Shown here piece after piece: positions 4,486 to 15,922 of a DNA stretch of 20,150 nucleotides (positions are counted from its first letter, which is position 1; each line of letters begins with the position of its first letter). Both the position numbers and the translations under genes were made by a program. The stretch covers positions 1 through 20,150 of the IMG/VR virus record IMGVR_UViG_3300036785_001127. One strand, given 5' to 3'. Source of the DNA: a virus. Under the pieces are notes generated by a model. It was not told where the DNA came from and did not search any database. It saw only the letters and a program-made list of their open reading frames with translations.

Positions 4486-4836
4486 ATGAGTGCACCCGCA
4501 CCCCCCAATAACAATGGTCGTTCCGCGCTGCTTAATACCTTAGCCAGCAGCGGCAATCAACTGGTGCAATTGGGCACTCTGGGTCTGGTAGCAATCTCTG
4601 GTCTCACCTCATTTTTTCAAACGCAGCAGGTAGGCGAGCAAGGCAGCAAGGACCGGGATAGGGCAATCCACGAGATTCACCAGCTCTACGAGAAGGTGGA
4701 TGAATTCGAGGCGCGGCAGACGACAATCCTGAAAACCCAGAACAGTATGCTCGCCAACCAGGAAAATGTCCTCAAGATCATGAAAGATAACCAGCAGCGA
4801 GAGCTAGAGAATCTGATGAGAAAAAACGGCCCATGA
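4486..4836 (+). CDS. Small membrane protein with coiled coil, holin-like candidate
   Basis: A 116-residue protein. Residues about 26-46 (LVQLGTLGLVAISGLTSFF region) form one likely transmembrane segment. Residues about 57-113 are charged and rich in Glu, Gln and Lys with heptad-like spacing, predicting a coiled coil. The start has a modest TAGG five bases upstream. Its place directly after the last tail gene is where many phages keep the holin, and a single-membrane-span protein with a charged tail would fit a holin or spanin-like role, but no family signature confirms this. Its stop overlaps the start of the cytochrome gene by ATGA, so the two are probably translated together. The usual endolysin partner is not in the window. 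An alternative is a membrane anchor or partner for the cytochrome. Confidence 0.55.
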   Translation: MSAPAPPNNNGRSALLNTLASSGNQLVQLGTLGLVAISGLTSFFQTQQVGEQGSKDRDRAIHEIHQLYEKVDEFEARQTTILKTQNSMLANQENVLKIMKDNQQRELENLMRKNGP

Positions 4837-6179
4837 AAATAAATATGTGGATGTTAACAGCGTGCGCATTTGCCGGGATAATTGCGTCACTTACCTTACT
4901 GATGGGCGCTCCGGGCGGGATTCCCGGGCCGCCTCCTAAAGCGCCCAAGATCCGGCTCAATCATCCGCCTCCCCCAGGCCCGACACCAACACCATCACTT
5001 TCAGGTTTCGGCGCTCTTCTGCCGGGAGTAACCTTGAGTGAAAAAGCCGCTTGGCTCGCGGGACGCGCACAGTTTCAGACGCCCGAAACCGTTGCTGACG
5101 GGTTAGGACCAATTTTTAATAACACCAATTGTTTTGCATGTCACCAGCAGCCCGACGTAGGGGGAGCGCCGGTTGTCGGTGGCGCTTCAGCGCAGACAGA
5201 GGTACGGTTTAAAACTAATGCTGGAATATTCGACCTCGTACACGTTTCTTCAATCAATCCCTCGGTCTGCCAGGATCAGGTACCCTTTGATGCCATCCTC
5301 ACGGCCCATAGAAAAAGTAATCAAACCTTTGGTTTGGGACTTATCGAAAATATCCCGGATGCGACAATATTGGCGAACCAGAATCGCAACCTTGGCCGCG
5401 ATGGAGTCTTCGGGAGAGCCGCAATACTCACTGACCCCGTAACGACCCGCATTGCCGGGGGTCACTTCTTTGATGCGCCTGACGGGCAAGTTGTCGGTCG
5501 CTTTGGCTGGAAAGCACAAGCAGCAACGCTGCTCGGATTTGATGCCCAGATAAACGAATTGGGCGAAACGACAAGGTTTTTCCCGACCGATTTGAGCCCT
5601 CATCAAGGGGGCCTGGAACCGCCCAACGATGCCGCTCGCAATGCAGCCGAGCCTCCCGGCTTACTAGCCACCGATTTACAGGATACCCCGGCGAATCCCA
5701 GCCTGCCTGAAGGACCCAGTAATTTCGATGACCTCGACCGATATGTTTTCTTCATGGCCCTAAATTCACCACCACCCACCGTCCCGTTAACGGTCAGTGC
5801 CTTAAATGGCCGAGCTTTGTTCACTAAGATCAATTGCGTCGCCTGTCACTTGCCGAACATGACTACCGGCGGCGGATCTAAAATCAGCGCCGTACTGAAT
5901 TTCGTTAACGTGCCGTTGTATTCAGATCTTTTGCTCCATGATACGGGACCGGCGCTTGGCGATGGAATCCAACAAGGAGCAGCCTCTGCGAATGAATTCA
6001 GGTCGGCCCCGCTGTGGGGCGTTCGGGCAAGGGCGCCCTACTTGCATGACGGGCGAGCCCCAGACCTGATGACAGCCATTCTAGCTCACGCTGGTGAGGC
6101 GCAGAAGATCAGGGACCGCTTCGCGAACCTTCCTGCCGCGGATCAGCAGGACATCCTCAATTTTCTGAACTCAATCTGA
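4833..6179 (+). CDS. Secreted di-heme cytochrome c, DHOR family (COG3488-like)
   Basis: A 448-residue protein. Residues about 5-26 are a signal peptide or membrane anchor (WMLTACAFAGIIASLTLLMG), followed by a Pro/Gly-rich linker (about 27-56). Two haem-attachment motifs are present, CFACH at 100-104 and CVACH at 335-339. The C-terminal signature RSAPLWGVRARAPYLHDGRA (390-409), then the AILAHAGEA stretch, is characteristic of the DHOR / putative thiol oxidoreductase group related to di-haem peroxidases. Members carry two covalent haems outside the cytoplasmic membrane and need host export and cytochrome c maturation. The reaction is not established for most of the family. The ATG overlaps the preceding small membrane gene (ATGA), tying it to the phage late operon and arguing against a chimeric join there. 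A metabolic cargo gene altering host electron transfer is my inference. Confidence 0.85.
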   Translation: MKINMWMLTACAFAGIIASLTLLMGAPGGIPGPPPKAPKIRLNHPPPPGPTPTPSLSGFGALLPGVTLSEKAAWLAGRAQFQTPETVADGLGPIFNNTNCFACHQQPDVGGAPVVGGASAQTEVRFKTNAGIFDLVHVSSINPSVCQDQVPFDAILTAHRKSNQTFGLGLIENIPDATILANQNRNLGRDGVFGRAAILTDPVTTRIAGGHFFDAPDGQVVGRFGWKAQAATLLGFDAQINELGETTRFFPTDLSPHQGGLEPPNDAARNAAEPPGLLATDLQDTPANPSLPEGPSNFDDLDRYVFFMALNSPPPTVPLTVSALNGRALFTKINCVACHLPNMTTGGGSKISAVLNFVNVPLYSDLLLHDTGPALGDGIQQGAASANEFRSAPLWGVRARAPYLHDGRAPDLMTAILAHAGEAQKIRDRFANLPAADQQDILNFLNSI

Positions 6180-11909: not shown

Positions 11910-12233
11910 ATGAGCACGGACGCATTGCGCCAAGCCCTCGAAGCATTGCCTATTCCCGTCTTGTGGCGCCGGCTAGGGCTTCCAGGCGACGTCCGCGGCA
12001 ATTGCACCGTGCGCAGTCCACTGCGAAACGACGACCGGACCCCGAGTTTCTCGATCTACGCAGACGGCCGGCGCTATATTGACCACTCAACAAAAGAAGG
12101 CGGCGACGGGTTCGACTTTTTCTGTGCGATCGCTAAGCTCGATAAACGTACAGCCTACCCCCAATTTCTCGAATTGGCTGGTGTCGGTTCCCGCCGGGGG
12201 AATCGGTGCAATCGGTGGGCGTACCGTCAATGA
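11910..12233 (+). CDS. Primase N-terminal (CHC2-like) module, separate short ORF
   Basis: A 107-residue protein with AAAGG (11898-11902) seven bases before the ATG. The core SPLRNDDRTPSFSIYADGRR, then YIDHSTKEGGDGFDFFCAI and a closing TAYPQFLELAGV is the zinc-ribbon-type N-terminal module of phage and plasmid primases. The usual Cys and His of the C-P-x-H motif are replaced (SPLR), so it may not bind zinc. The last ~20 residues (GSRRGNRCNRWAYRQ) look unrelated to a normal domain end. The TOPRIM-helicase begins 29 bases later in another frame, and in relatives I recall the two parts form one chain. The gap before this gene holds the 6-bp inverted repeat AAACGC/GCGTTT (11877-11897). Confidence 0.72.
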   Translation: MSTDALRQALEALPIPVLWRRLGLPGDVRGNCTVRSPLRNDDRTPSFSIYADGRRYIDHSTKEGGDGFDFFCAIAKLDKRTAYPQFLELAGVGSRRGNRCNRWAYRQ

Positions 12234-12261
12234 AAATAAAAAGTGTTTGGCAAAAAACAGG

Positions 12262-13929
12262 ATGTCTAATCAACCTTTTGTCTGGTTTGATTGTGTCGCG
12301 GATTTTCGTGAAACTGAAATTATTGGATTGGCCGCCGCGCGCGGATATCGGGTCGAATTCGTACGGTGGCTGCATCAACACGGTGAAGTCGGTCGCTATT
12401 ACGTACCTGGCACCAGTTGGTGCACGGCGTTACCGATTCGCGACGGCAATGGCGACGTGTTTCGATGCCATTGTCGAGGCGAGTCGAAGAAAATTTTCAA
12501 ATATGAACCTGCCGACCCGGATAAGAAATCGATTAGTGCGATGGTGTTAGGCGATCTTGTTTCGGCGCTTCGAGTCCATATTCACGAGAGCGAATGGGAC
12601 GCGCTCGCACAGATCAGCGCGCTCAGACTGGAGGACGAGATTTACCGCGGAGAGGCGTGCGTGATCGCGACGCGCGGCGCTGCGGACAGCAAGCGAATAA
12701 GCCCGGACGCAATATCGGTGGCTGGCGGAACGAATATTTATTTGTATCCGCAAAACGATACACCAGACCGATATGGTCGGGTTGCCAGTGAAGAGTGGTT
12801 AAGGGGTTGCGTGGATGAACTGGGCGGAGCCTATGTGGTGCGAATTCCCGCCGCGCACAAAGACCTCAACGATTGGATTCGAGCAGCTGATTTCACCACT
12901 GATCAGCTGGAATATGCCATTGACAACGCGCCGCTCGAGAAGCGCAAAGGGAAGTTTCCGGCGATCGTTACAGGCGATATTATTGAAGCAGTGCATCAGC
13001 CCTTGCCCGCTGAAGTGATCCGCGGAATTCTCGCGATCGGTGAAAAAGGGTCACTGGTTGGCGGGAGCAAAGCATACAAAACTTGGACGCTGCTGCATCA
13101 GGCTTTAGCAGTAGCCAGCGGAACGGACTGGTGGGGATTTTCTTGTCCGCAGAATAATTCGTTATTCTTAAATCTGGAGTTGCCTCCGCCATATTTTGAG
13201 AATCGGGTGCGCACGGTGGCTTTCGCCATGGGGATCAAAGTGCCTGCGAATTTTCATGTGTGGCATTTGCGAAGAGCGAAGTTGGGCGACCCGGAACGCT
13301 GGGGCGACTTTGTTGATGAGCTTGTGGTGCAGGCGTCGGCAATTGCCAATCCGTTTATAACCTCGGATCCGATTTACAAGCTCTTGGGCGGTCGCAACGA
13401 AAACGATGCCGGCGATGTGGGAAGTCTGCTCGAACAGATCGACGACCTCATCGAGGTGGCGAACGGCAGTAATTTTTTCGGGCAGCACACGACCAAGGGC
13501 AATCAGGCGGCTAAGGAAGCAATCGACCGGGCGGCCGGCAGCGGAGTGTTCGCGCGCGATCCGGACACGATATTCCCGATGACCGCGCACGAGAAACCGG
13601 GCGCATTCGTGATCGAGCCGATATTGCGAAATCACTCGCCGCTACCTCCTTTTGTGGTGGAATGGCAACCGCCGCTTTTCGTACGCAATCCGCTGCTTGA
13701 TCCCGGGGAGCTCAAGGGACCGAAAGTACGGACCGGCGGCAAATACGACATGCACATGCTGGCTTTCTGGCTGGGAGCTAAAAGACTCAGAAGTAAACAG
13801 TTTGCGGTATTGGTCGGCGATGAAACCGGGATGAGTAGAGCGACTTTTTACGAATTGCTCAAAAAAGCCGAAGCGGCGAGCTTAATTAAACGCGATCCCA
13901 CCGACAAAGATTACTGGATAAAGAAGTAA
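12262..13929 (+). CDS. TOPRIM primase-RepA-type helicase
   Basis: A 555-residue protein if ATG 12262 is used. The frame is open upstream to 12079, but that part overlaps the preceding gene. Residues about 8-80 (FVWFDCVADF ... GYRVEFVRWL) and 131-215 (CVIATRGAADS, VAGGTNIYLYPQND, KDLNDWIRA) form a TOPRIM-like primase region, with TRGA where classical TOPRIM has the catalytic Glu-Gly. The RecA-fold motor follows: Walker A GGSKAYKT (267-274), NLELP (304-308), SDPIYKLLGG with D369, and QHTTKGNQAAKEAIDRAAGSG (408-428). This matches the RepA-like hexameric helicase ATPases. The C-terminus (about 495-555, DETGMSRATFYELLKKAEAA) is a winged helix. It should unwind and possibly prime phage DNA. It ends just before the GTCCAG repeat element. 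Confidence 0.85.
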   Translation: MSNQPFVWFDCVADFRETEIIGLAAARGYRVEFVRWLHQHGEVGRYYVPGTSWCTALPIRDGNGDVFRCHCRGESKKIFKYEPADPDKKSISAMVLGDLVSALRVHIHESEWDALAQISALRLEDEIYRGEACVIATRGAADSKRISPDAISVAGGTNIYLYPQNDTPDRYGRVASEEWLRGCVDELGGAYVVRIPAAHKDLNDWIRAADFTTDQLEYAIDNAPLEKRKGKFPAIVTGDIIEAVHQPLPAEVIRGILAIGEKGSLVGGSKAYKTWTLLHQALAVASGTDWWGFSCPQNNSLFLNLELPPPYFENRVRTVAFAMGIKVPANFHVWHLRRAKLGDPERWGDFVDELVVQASAIANPFITSDPIYKLLGGRNENDAGDVGSLLEQIDDLIEVANGSNFFGQHTTKGNQAAKEAIDRAAGSGVFARDPDTIFPMTAHEKPGAFVIEPILRNHSPLPPFVVEWQPPLFVRNPLLDPGELKGPKVRTGGKYDMHMLAFWLGAKRLRSKQFAVLVGDETGMSRATFYELLKKAEAASLIKRDPTDKDYWIKK

Positions 13930-13963
13930 AACGAACGCAATTCAATGAAAGACAACGCAACCC

Positions 13964-14073
13964 GTCCAGTTAGTCCAGTCTAGCTTAAATCCGTCTGGAC
14001 AACCAGTCCAGTCCAGCGCTTTATGAAATAAAAGCGCGCTGGACTGTGGATTAAGACTGGTCGTCTAGTCCAG
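13964..14073. repeat. Cluster of GTCCAG/CTGGAC hexamers (iteron-like)
   Basis: GTCCAG occurs at 13964, 13973, 14006, 14011 and 14068, and its reverse complement CTGGAC at 13995 and 14039: seven copies in 110 bases, against well under one expected by chance. The element starts about 35 bases after the helicase stop and no credible gene covers it. Confidence 0.85.
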
Positions 14074-14075
14074 AC
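13993..14075. other. Nested inverted repeats; candidate replication origin or structured RNA
   Basis: Three perfect inverted repeats are nested around one centre: GTCTGGAC (13993-14000) with GTCCAGAC (14068-14075); ACCAGTC (14002-14008) with GACTGGT (14055-14061); CAGTCCAGCGC (14009-14019) with GCGCTGGACTG (14036-14046). Together they give 26 paired bases in an 83-base element with a 16-base A/T-rich apical loop. No T-run follows on the + strand, so a simple terminator is unlikely. Strand composition changes from G-rich to C-rich at this point. The position beside the helicase gene favours an origin. A regulatory RNA or recombination site is also possible. Confidence 0.65.
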
Positions 14076-14103
14076 TCAGACTAAACCTGTAACATAACGC
14101 AAT

Positions 14104-14265
14104 ATGCAATATAAATCAGAAGACCGTTCCGCACATCTAGTTGAACTCACCGCAGCTTTACTCGCTTCAGGGCAGTATTCCAGATTCGCTAAACCTGAGG
14201 AAATCGTCGGACACGCCGAAATGATCCGTAAGGAAATTGAACGCAAAATTACCGATCGCGAATAA
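14104..14265 (+). CDS. Small acidic/basic helical protein, unknown
   Basis: A 53-residue frame from ATG 14104 to TAA 14263-14265, one base before the next gene's ATG. The product is helical and highly charged (MQYKSEDRSAHLVELTAALL ... MIRKEIERKITDRE). No strong ribosome-binding site is visible upstream. It is the first gene after the repeat element. Spacing of one base to the vWA gene suggests coupled translation and supports it being real. No family is recognised. Confidence 0.5.
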   Translation: MQYKSEDRSAHLVELTAALLASGQYSRFAKPEEIVGHAEMIRKEIERKITDRE

Positions 14266-14266
14266 T

Positions 14267-14959
14267 ATGGCTCGATTCGTCTCTAAATCTTTGCCCGCTT
14301 CAGTCAGCTCTGAAGTCTCCACTGCCGCCATCCCCGAAATCGCCCTTACCCTGGATCGTTCCGGCTCCATGCAACCTAACCGCCTCGCTGCGGTCCAAGG
14401 CGCTAACGCCTTCCTTGCCGCTCAACAAAAACTCCAGCTCCCGGCCCGTTTCACTTTCACCACCTTTAGCAACCTCATCTCGGTCATTCACAACGCCGTG
14501 CCGATCCATTGCGCTCACCCGCTTAGCCCCCAACAATTCGCCCCACTAGGGCCTACCGCTCTGTGCGACGCAATCGGCGATCTGATCGACCGCGTCGGAC
14601 CACGCTTCGATTCCACCGAGCACAACGATTCACTCGCAAAACCGCGTGTCCTTATCGCTATTCTGACCGACGGCCAGGAAAACGCTTCCACCAATTGGAC
14701 CCAGTTCAAACTCCAGGAACTCATCATCTTTCGCCAGTCCGTTCACCATTGGCAGTTCCTCTTTATCGGCCCAAACGATGAAGCCAGCCTCTTCGCCAGG
14801 CAAATCGGTATCCCGGCCGATCATATCACCACCTTCGATCCCCATAACCCGCAGCTGCTCCAACAAGCCCTCAGCCGGCTCGCTGTCGCAACTACCGCTT
14901 TCCTCACCCATGACGCCAGTTTCGCTAAATTCTTGCAGCTCCCGCCCACTACCGATTAG
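14267..14959 (+). CDS. von Willebrand factor A (vWA) domain protein
   Basis: A 230-residue protein, start at ATG 14267 one base after the preceding stop. An in-frame TTG at 14237 would overlap the upstream gene. It is essentially one vWA domain with a complete metal-ion-dependent adhesion site: DRSGSM (D30, S32, S34), GPTALCDA (T97) and LTDGQEN (D135). The C-terminal LFIGPNDEASLFARQIGI is also typical of vWA proteins seen in phages. There is no signal peptide or membrane span, so it should act in the cytoplasm or virion, probably by metal-dependent protein binding. No MoxR-type ATPase, the common partner, is adjacent. Codon use is rich in C-ending and CTC codons, unlike the G-rich replication genes before it. 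The partner is unknown. Confidence 0.82.
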   Translation: MARFVSKSLPASVSSEVSTAAIPEIALTLDRSGSMQPNRLAAVQGANAFLAAQQKLQLPARFTFTTFSNLISVIHNAVPIHCAHPLSPQQFAPLGPTALCDAIGDLIDRVGPRFDSTEHNDSLAKPRVLIAILTDGQENASTNWTQFKLQELIIFRQSVHHWQFLFIGPNDEASLFARQIGIPADHITTFDPHNPQLLQQALSRLAVATTAFLTHDASFAKFLQLPPTTD

Positions 14960-15009
14960 CCTCTCATTTGTTAAAGGTTAAGGTTTTGTTTGACACCTGG
15001 AGCCCGCAT

Positions 15010-15246
15010 ATGCCATCCACAATGTTTCCAATGAACAGACGTTCCCATAAGTTGCTGGTGCTCGTTAGTGATGAGAAGCTCGCCGCTAAACTTATCGCTA
15101 TCGCCGGCCAGCTCGATGTTCCCGTTTCCCGCTTGGCCCGTCTCCTTATCGAAGCGGGCTTGCGTACCGCTAAAGATTCTAACGGCCTGCTCTCTACTCG
15201 CGCCAATACCCAGATTCCTGCCGAATTGCTCCAGGACGTACAGTGA
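15010..15246 (+). CDS. Ribbon-helix-helix (CopG/Arc-like) DNA-binding protein
   Basis: The ATG at 15010 is chosen because GGAG (14999-15002) lies seven bases upstream. ATGs at 15022 and 15031 are alternatives. The 78-residue product contains a strand HKLLVLVSDE, a helix LAAKLIAIAGQLDVP and a second helix VSRLARLLIEAGL, the order and size of a ribbon-helix-helix domain, followed by a ~28-residue polar tail. It is probably a dimeric repressor, or the DNA-recognition partner of a neighbouring protein. Its stop overlaps the next start (GTGA at 15243-15246), so they are likely made together. Possible operators are the short palindromes in the gap after the next gene. Confidence 0.65.
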   Translation: MPSTMFPMNRRSHKLLVLVSDEKLAAKLIAIAGQLDVPVSRLARLLIEAGLRTAKDSNGLLSTRANTQIPAELLQDVQ

Positions 15247-15815
15247 ATCCCAGCGATTCCCCAGCCAATCTACGCGAAACCCTCGCCTTGCGCCTGGGCC
15301 AGATTTATAAGCAGGAACGTACCAATGAGGAAATCCGCTCCCCAGGACTGTCCAATAAAGCCCAACGCCTGCTGGCCGGTAACCCGGCTACCTATGGCGC
15401 AGCAATCGAAATGCTCTGCGACGGTAGCGATGCACGCAAAACCGCTAAGTCTCTCAGGCTCGATGTCTCTCTCGTCAAATTCTTGGCCCGCCTCCATCCC
15501 GAAGTCAGAGCTGCTCGGCGGCTCGTCGTCGTCGGTAACCTCGAGGAATCGATCGTGGCTCTCTCAAACCGCCTTAGCAATGAGGCTGACGAAATACCGA
15601 TGCGCGATGTCGCACGCACCCTCTCAACGGCAATCGATAAGCTCGCCACGCTTACCGGTAACGTTACACAAACCGTTGCAATTCAACACCATGCGTCACG
15701 CGAGCAGGTCCTCGCCATGTATGACGAGATCAGAAAACGTGATGACCGGCCATCAGCGGGAGTGAAAGATTTGGACGAGGCCAAAAGCAAGGCAATAACC
15801 GGAATAAATGATTAG
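15243..15815 (+). CDS. Helix-turn-helix protein, possible small terminase subunit
   Basis: A 190-residue protein starting with GTG in a four-base GTGA overlap with the upstream gene. A mid-region GSDARKTAKSLRLDVSLVKF (residues about 62-81) reads as a helix-turn-helix. The following segment EIPMRDVARTLSTAIDKLAT with LTGNVTQTV resembles a motif I associate with HTH/small-terminase-like phage proteins. The C-terminus is charged (MYDEIRKRDDRPS). Location upstream of the large terminase gene, with a DNA-binding fold, suggests it recognises the packaging site, but a second candidate (16154-16783) lies closer. It is separated from the terminase by a 338-base non-coding region full of short repeats, which could be its target. 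Confidence 0.55.
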   Translation: MNPSDSPANLRETLALRLGQIYKQERTNEEIRSPGLSNKAQRLLAGNPATYGAAIEMLCDGSDARKTAKSLRLDVSLVKFLARLHPEVRAARRLVVVGNLEESIVALSNRLSNEADEIPMRDVARTLSTAIDKLATLTGNVTQTVAIQHHASREQVLAMYDEIRKRDDRPSAGVKDLDEAKSKAITGIND

Positions 15816-15837
15816 CCATTAGTTCCACTCGGTTTGT

Positions 15838-15847
15838 TGACATGTCA
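15838..15847. promoter_or_regulatory. 10-bp palindrome TGACATGTCA overlapping a -35-like TTGACA
   Basis: TGACATGTCA is a perfect palindrome. TTGACA (15837-15842) overlaps it and matches the sigma-70 -35 consensus, but the best -10 at suitable spacing (GAGGAT, 15861-15866) is poor. It could be an operator. Confidence 0.3.
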
Positions 15848-15922
15848 TCGGCAACTGTCTGAGGATCAGCCACCAGAGCCGCTTCGCGGGCGATTACTGC
15901 ATCCGTAAAACATGCTTCGGCG

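Follow-up and report, generated by a model that had tools for sequence, protein, structure and literature searches.

The usual view of SF4 replicative helicases is that they depend on a distinct initiator or loader, as RepA of RSF1010 depends on RepC, and the helicase of the phage P4 alpha protein is of the SF3 type. A published precedent for a helicase-adjacent origin is provided by SaPI Rep and by SCCmec Cch2, the latter with a putative origin (PMC7581432). The P4 alpha protein combines a primase, a helicase, and a winged-helix origin-binding domain in one polypeptide and binds iterons, and the RSF1010 oriV carries iterons plus hairpins used in priming (PMC4234260). In pRN1 and Bordetella phage BIP-1, a stem-loop is found downstream of the replication gene, with a conserved structure and a sequence that is not conserved; pRN1 replication needs this stem-loop, and the protein carries a winged helix at its C-terminus (PMC4234260). 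In the PLE satellites of Vibrio cholerae, the DNA-binding domain of the initiator RepA covaries with the iterons, only cognate pairs replicate, and diversification may be selected for by a nuclease directed at the origin (PMC8263062).

Here, we describe an element that is quite probably the replication origin of a phage, or at least the site where its helicase is loaded, with iterons that the adjacent helicase would bind through its C-terminal domain; this reading draws on sequence, structural models, and analogy with the systems above. The element lies in IMG/VR virus record IMGVR_UViG_3300036785_001127, whose 20,150 bases were analyzed as a whole (hereafter, the window). The features of the locus are as follows.

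12079-13929, + strand: primase-helicase gene, 616 aa (AAA_25, E 6.6e-17), RSF1010-RepA-like SF4 core
13750-13926, + strand: C-terminal winged helix-turn-helix (residues 558-616, AlphaFold2), proposed origin-binding domain
13837-13875, + strand: predicted recognition helix (residues 587-599), within SRATFYELLKKAEAA, third helix in both models
13930-14103, unstranded: noncoding element with iterons and hairpins, a proposed replication origin, from pair score and fold
13964-13969, + strand: GTCCAG unit, 35 bp past the helicase stop
13973-13978, + strand: GTCCAG unit, 9 bp after the unit at 13964
13995-14000, − strand: GTCCAG unit
14006-14011, + strand: GTCCAG unit
14011-14016, + strand: GTCCAG unit, left arm of the central hairpin
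14039-14044, − strand: GTCCAG unit, right arm of the central hairpin
14068-14073, + strand: GTCCAG unit
13993-14000 and 14068-14075: 8-bp perfect arms, nested
14002-14008 and 14055-14061: 7-bp perfect arms, nested
14009-14046, unstranded: central hairpin with 11-bp arms (14009-14019 and 14036-14046), inner core CCAGCGCTT...AAAAGCGCGCTGGA also in the relative
14968-15246, + strand: ribbon-helix-helix-like protein, a rival binder disfavored by its conservation in the relative

A sequence-only reading of this DNA had reported seven GTCCAG/CTGGAC units and nested arms of 8, 7, and 11 bp, and all were recovered at 13964-14075, with five units on the + and two on the − strand. Its statement that the repeats cover no gene also holds, as no ORF of at least 50 aa was assigned to the gap (13930-14103) between the helicase stop at 13929 and the next ORF start at 14104; a tRNA search gave no match. 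The arrangement had further been called far beyond chance, and this is true of the pairing and the fold, but the GTCCAG count on its own is only moderately unusual. The hexamer occurs 17 times in the 20 kb, 7 of them inside 13964-14075, and, when 20-kb sequences were simulated, 4 of 150 contained a 6-mer repeated at least seven times within 112 nt. By comparison, the 7-mer pair score of 13930-14103 was 28, whereas resampling gave a mean of 2.0 and a maximum of 18 (0/5000 reached 28). Folding as RNA and as ssDNA, which the same reading had proposed as a check, yielded z-scores of −4.7 for RNA and of −5.5 (+) and −6.0 (−) for ssDNA (overall range, −4.5 to −6), better than all 200 shuffles in each case, and both DNA strands folded about equally well.

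The neighboring gene does encode a RepA-type helicase, as had been noticed. Indeed, RSF1010 RepA was the only PDB sequence matched by the helicase family profile as well as the top Foldseek match. Residues 190-269 make up a weak TOPRIM-like part (sub-threshold Toprim_3 match), and the N-terminal half was mostly modeled without confidence by AlphaFold2. The last 60 residues adopt an H-H-H-E-E order (three helices, two strands) in two independent AlphaFold2 models, one of the full-length protein and one of the isolated piece, with a pLDDT of about 58-81 (58-79 in the full-length model; mean of 70 for the isolated piece). Foldseek analysis of this piece returned mostly winged-helix domains, including archaeal MCM C-terminal and MarR-type ones, all with weak E-values, and its Pfam MarR_2/winged-helix matches were sub-threshold. 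Given this predicted fold and the covariation described below, we infer that the C-terminal winged helix binds the GTCCAG iterons.

The window resembles SaPI Rep/ori in that its array lies directly downstream of the helicase gene and consists of multiple short iterons (7 units in the window and 13 in a close relative). The predicted winged helix and the covariation suggest that the helicase C-terminus may recognize these iterons. However, the SaPI and SCCmec helicases come from other families (DUF927, D5/Primase_Cterm) than the AAA_25, RSF1010-RepA/SF4-like protein of the window, whose array, unlike theirs, is strongly palindromic around a hairpin. Of the parts that P4 alpha combines, the window protein has a helicase and a predicted winged helix, with the TOPRIM match below the cut-off; its core is of the RecA-like RepA type rather than SF3, and no homology to P4 alpha was seen. 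RSF1010 RepA, a RepA-type hexameric helicase, is the closest solved relative of that core; in RSF1010 the helicase, the primase (RepB′), and the iteron-binding protein (RepC) are separate, whereas the winged helix of the window is fused to the helicase. The ssi-type primase hairpins of RSF1010 have a possible counterpart in the conserved central hairpin. As in pRN1 and BIP-1, the stem-loop of the window family is found downstream of the replication gene and keeps its structure while its sequence changes; however, those systems combine an AEP primase with an SF3 helicase, no iterons have been reported for them, and no specific binding has been found. PLE RepA differs in that its DNA-binding domain is N-terminal, the recruitment of the replisome is ascribed to its C-terminal domain, and it is not a RepA-type helicase. 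By analogy, the arrangement in the window seems best explained as SaPI/P4-like logic with an SF4 (RSF1010 RepA-like) helicase, and we found no open-access paper describing a helicase-read downstream origin for RepA/SF4 phage helicases.

The sequence-only reading had named related phages lacking the repeats beside the same helicase as a refutation, and the close relative did not refute it. The viral contig L002 (35,742 bp), whose helicase is 87% identical to that of the window, carries a larger element at the same place after the helicase gene (RNA fold z −7.6). Seven of the eight TCCA/TGGA sites in the window read GTCCAG, while all 13 in L002 read CTCCA. Alignment of the two places several units in register and reveals a common central hairpin core (CCAGCGCTT...AAAAGCGCGCTGGA). 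The two helicases diverge most at the C-terminus (74% identity, vs 84% for the N-terminal part and 90% for the core), with R/A and E/Q differences in the predicted recognition helix. Both the helicase and the ribbon-helix-helix proteins had been proposed as binders of the unit, and the helicase is the likely one: the ribbon-helix-helix protein is 79% identical in the relative, and its N-terminal strand is invariant though all units changed. No second array of GTCCAG or CTCCA units was found in the window or in the L002 record. An exact-pattern search based on the helicase alone gave one close viral relative and none in genomes, and terminase alignment proved too distant for finding relatives (the L059 locus had a different gene order, and no element was noticed there). 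We also considered CCAGCGCT..AGCGCGCTGG as a mobile hairpin motif and rejected it, as its 47 matches in viral contigs, many of them copies of one repeated passage, looked unrelated apart from those of the relative.

With regard to the wider helicase family, we recruited 80 loci from viral contigs, L002 among them, by alignment with two distant phage helicases and scored the position of the most repeat-dense 250 bp in each locus. The densest repeats lay just past the helicase stop in 66 of the 80 viral loci scored and, upon removal of near-duplicates, in 52 of 65 (4% expected by placement). A second, previously unused set of 80 loci from bacterial genomes encoding the helicase contributed 76 loci to the position count, and 43 of them peaked directly after the stop (5% expected). 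The array was not the locus maximum in 13 of 65 viral and 33 of 76 bacterial-genome loci. The 220 nt after the helicase stop had a median fold z of −6.6, as opposed to −0.3 to −0.7 for control stretches, and the repeat units were phage-specific (GGGACA, GGGAAA, CCGCAAA, GGTGTCAAA, GTCGCACCC, and others).

Several other observations were made in these sets. The loci from Lachnospiraceae and similar genomes (L210-L219) encode the same helicase type and mostly show little or no array after the gene, which makes them an informative set of exceptions. Very dense repeat blocks were found away from the helicase end at L125:8076 and L130:7451, with pair scores of 900 and 228. An AT-rich melting region was rejected as a family feature, since a top-decile AT peak coincided with the array in only 34 of 65 loci and the window was unremarkable.

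The repeat unit is predicted by the C-terminal helix-turn-helix and not by the helicase core or control DNA. Array similarity correlated with identity over the last 85 residues when the N-terminus and core were held constant (partial r of 0.317; 0/2000 permutations); the partial effect of the core was −0.001, and five control regions gave at most 0.06. The C-terminal correlation was replicated in the bacterial-genome set (0.240, p = 0.001), including its Verrucomicrobiota part (0.311, p = 0.001). In that set, the helicase N-terminus correlated with the array as well (0.216), so part of the signal reflects shared ancestry. In addition, block recombination could yield part of the covariation, the C-terminal domain being encoded beside the array.

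Within the common helix-turn-helix type, one residue of the recognition helix (xxTVRx) separates the unit types: loci with N carry GAAA units and those with R/K carry CA-type ones, without overlap between 11 and 19 strong arrays. This residue changed 12 times on a tree built without the C-terminus and was concordant with the unit type in 38 of 39 loci; 5 or 6 of 6 independent pairs agreed, with none against (6/6 in most pairings). Because the residue test was picked with the data already in view, the replication of the array position and of the C-terminal correlation in the bacterial-genome set matters. As for the residue in that set, by eye L209, L244, and L247 fit the rule, and L220, with residue N and a TGTCAA unit, goes against it. 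L168 is discordant. The winged-helix subtype of the window is represented by few loci. Six loci (L106, L118, L133, L148, L154, and L158) have a recognition helix of the R-T-V/I/L-x-D form with mostly GCGG-type units, possibly a further letter of the code.

The helicases closest to that of the window outside viral contigs, mostly 36-44% identical, came mainly from Verrucomicrobiota genomes (L174-L203), and several of these matches extend into the C-terminus, which suggests Verrucomicrobiota as the host group of the phage. At L181, FFYELL stands in place of the TFYELL of the window, and the units are GTCCAC; RAT/SF-F/Y-R helices go with GTCTCA (L176, L189, and L196), TFYRLRK with TGCCAA (L180 and L200), and RFYALL with GTCCCA (L177 and L178). 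Five Verrucomicrobiota loci have one central hairpin in common (CCCTTTAGGG or a close variant of it), around which the units differ on both arms (GTCTCA, GTCCCA, TGCCA). A pair count in these hairpin loci gave 94.5% paired cells, with four pairs changed on both sides. Since one unit occupies both arms, paired changes are as expected from the exchange of a protein-binding word and are not in themselves evidence for RNA.

Under the origin reading, the RepA-type primase-helicase, whose gene lies directly upstream, would bind the GTCCAG iterons through its C-terminal winged helix. By analogy, several units in both orientations would gather helicase molecules around the central hairpin, which may extrude or be melted, allowing the helicase ring to assemble and priming to start, so that replication would begin at the element. 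With one protein performing both unwinding and origin recognition, the helicase gene and the origin would form one cassette, in which the central hairpin is retained and the unit changes in step with the recognition helix. We lean toward the more general proposal that there is a widespread class of phage replicons whose SF4 RepA-type primase-helicase recognizes its own origin and whose helix-turn-helix and array codiversify around a fixed hairpin, following a residue-to-base code that is simple and can be read in part. Such codiversification would give every phage an origin address of its own; competition between origins or defense directed at them is perhaps the driving force. If true, this would place SaPI/P4 logic in a different helicase superfamily, and the covariation would supply many natural initiator-site pairs for a direct test of the recognition code. 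Moreover, for many phages and prophages of streptococci, clostridia, and Verrucomicrobiota, the origin could be predicted from sequence.

Among the three options that had been offered for the element, a replication origin is the best supported because of the family-wide position, the covariation of unit and helix-turn-helix, and the SaPI, P4, and pRN1 parallels; the other two, an undescribed RNA and a recombination site, are less probable. An operator, by which the helicase or a small DNA-binding protein regulates the downstream genes with no replication start at the array, is the alternative we take most seriously, though we consider it unlikely. The units would suit helix-turn-helix binding sites, and genes follow directly (encoding a 53-aa, a vWA-type, a ribbon-helix-helix, and a 190-aa protein). 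Yet the only promoter-like site in 13800-14400 lies outside the element at 14237, which is about the chance expectation; the array stays after the helicase gene in phages with differing downstream genes; and at least 10 copies in both orientations around a hairpin would be unusual for an operator. It is very unlikely that the element acts as RNA, i.e., as a structured element for termination, antitermination, or processing where early genes give way to late ones. The strong predicted fold and the compensatory changes among relatives are what such an RNA would show, but the latter follow from the same unit changing on both arms, most units are direct repeats for which pairing is not needed, and the unit tracks the DNA-binding domain of the helicase, with both strands folding about equally. 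Moreover, none of 4227 Rfam families matched at gathering score, and no terminator-like site was found in 13800-14400.

A packaging (cos/pac) or recombination site seems more improbable still. Genes resembling small and large terminases do occur 1-3 kb downstream in the window phage and in FP_Lugh, but the genes directly after the array in Javan249 and EFC-1 are not terminases, the window and relative records both run through the site with no end there, and covariation was seen with the helicase, on which the comparison was made. Lastly, the repeats might be selfish or generated by slippage, accumulating without function in a noncoding gap. A short unit copied in both direct and inverted form can result from template switching. 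We nevertheless regard this explanation as hardly credible in view of the systematic position of the array in two collections, the covariation of the unit with the C-terminal domain of the helicase, and the retention of the central hairpin core while the units change.

The change in strand composition pointed out by the sequence-only reading is real, with GC skew passing from about +0.10 to −0.23, but it marks a local C-rich island; as an origin signature it was rejected, its sign being opposite to that of a bidirectional origin and the pattern not being general in the family. The island begins directly after the element and spans about 1.8 kb of the + strand (14104-15900), with a skew of about −0.23 to −0.28 and genes all on the + strand; that of the relative has a skew of about −0.31 to −0.33. 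Elsewhere in the window, positions 4833-6179 hold a di-haem oxidoreductase/cytochrome-c peroxidase-like gene (PF06537, E 5e-48) that may be an auxiliary metabolic gene, and the relative G001 showed no DNA match across this stretch. The vWA-like protein encoded at 14237-14959 (phrog_7371) is weakly related to proteins of many Streptomyces, Microbacterium, and Pseudomonas phages.
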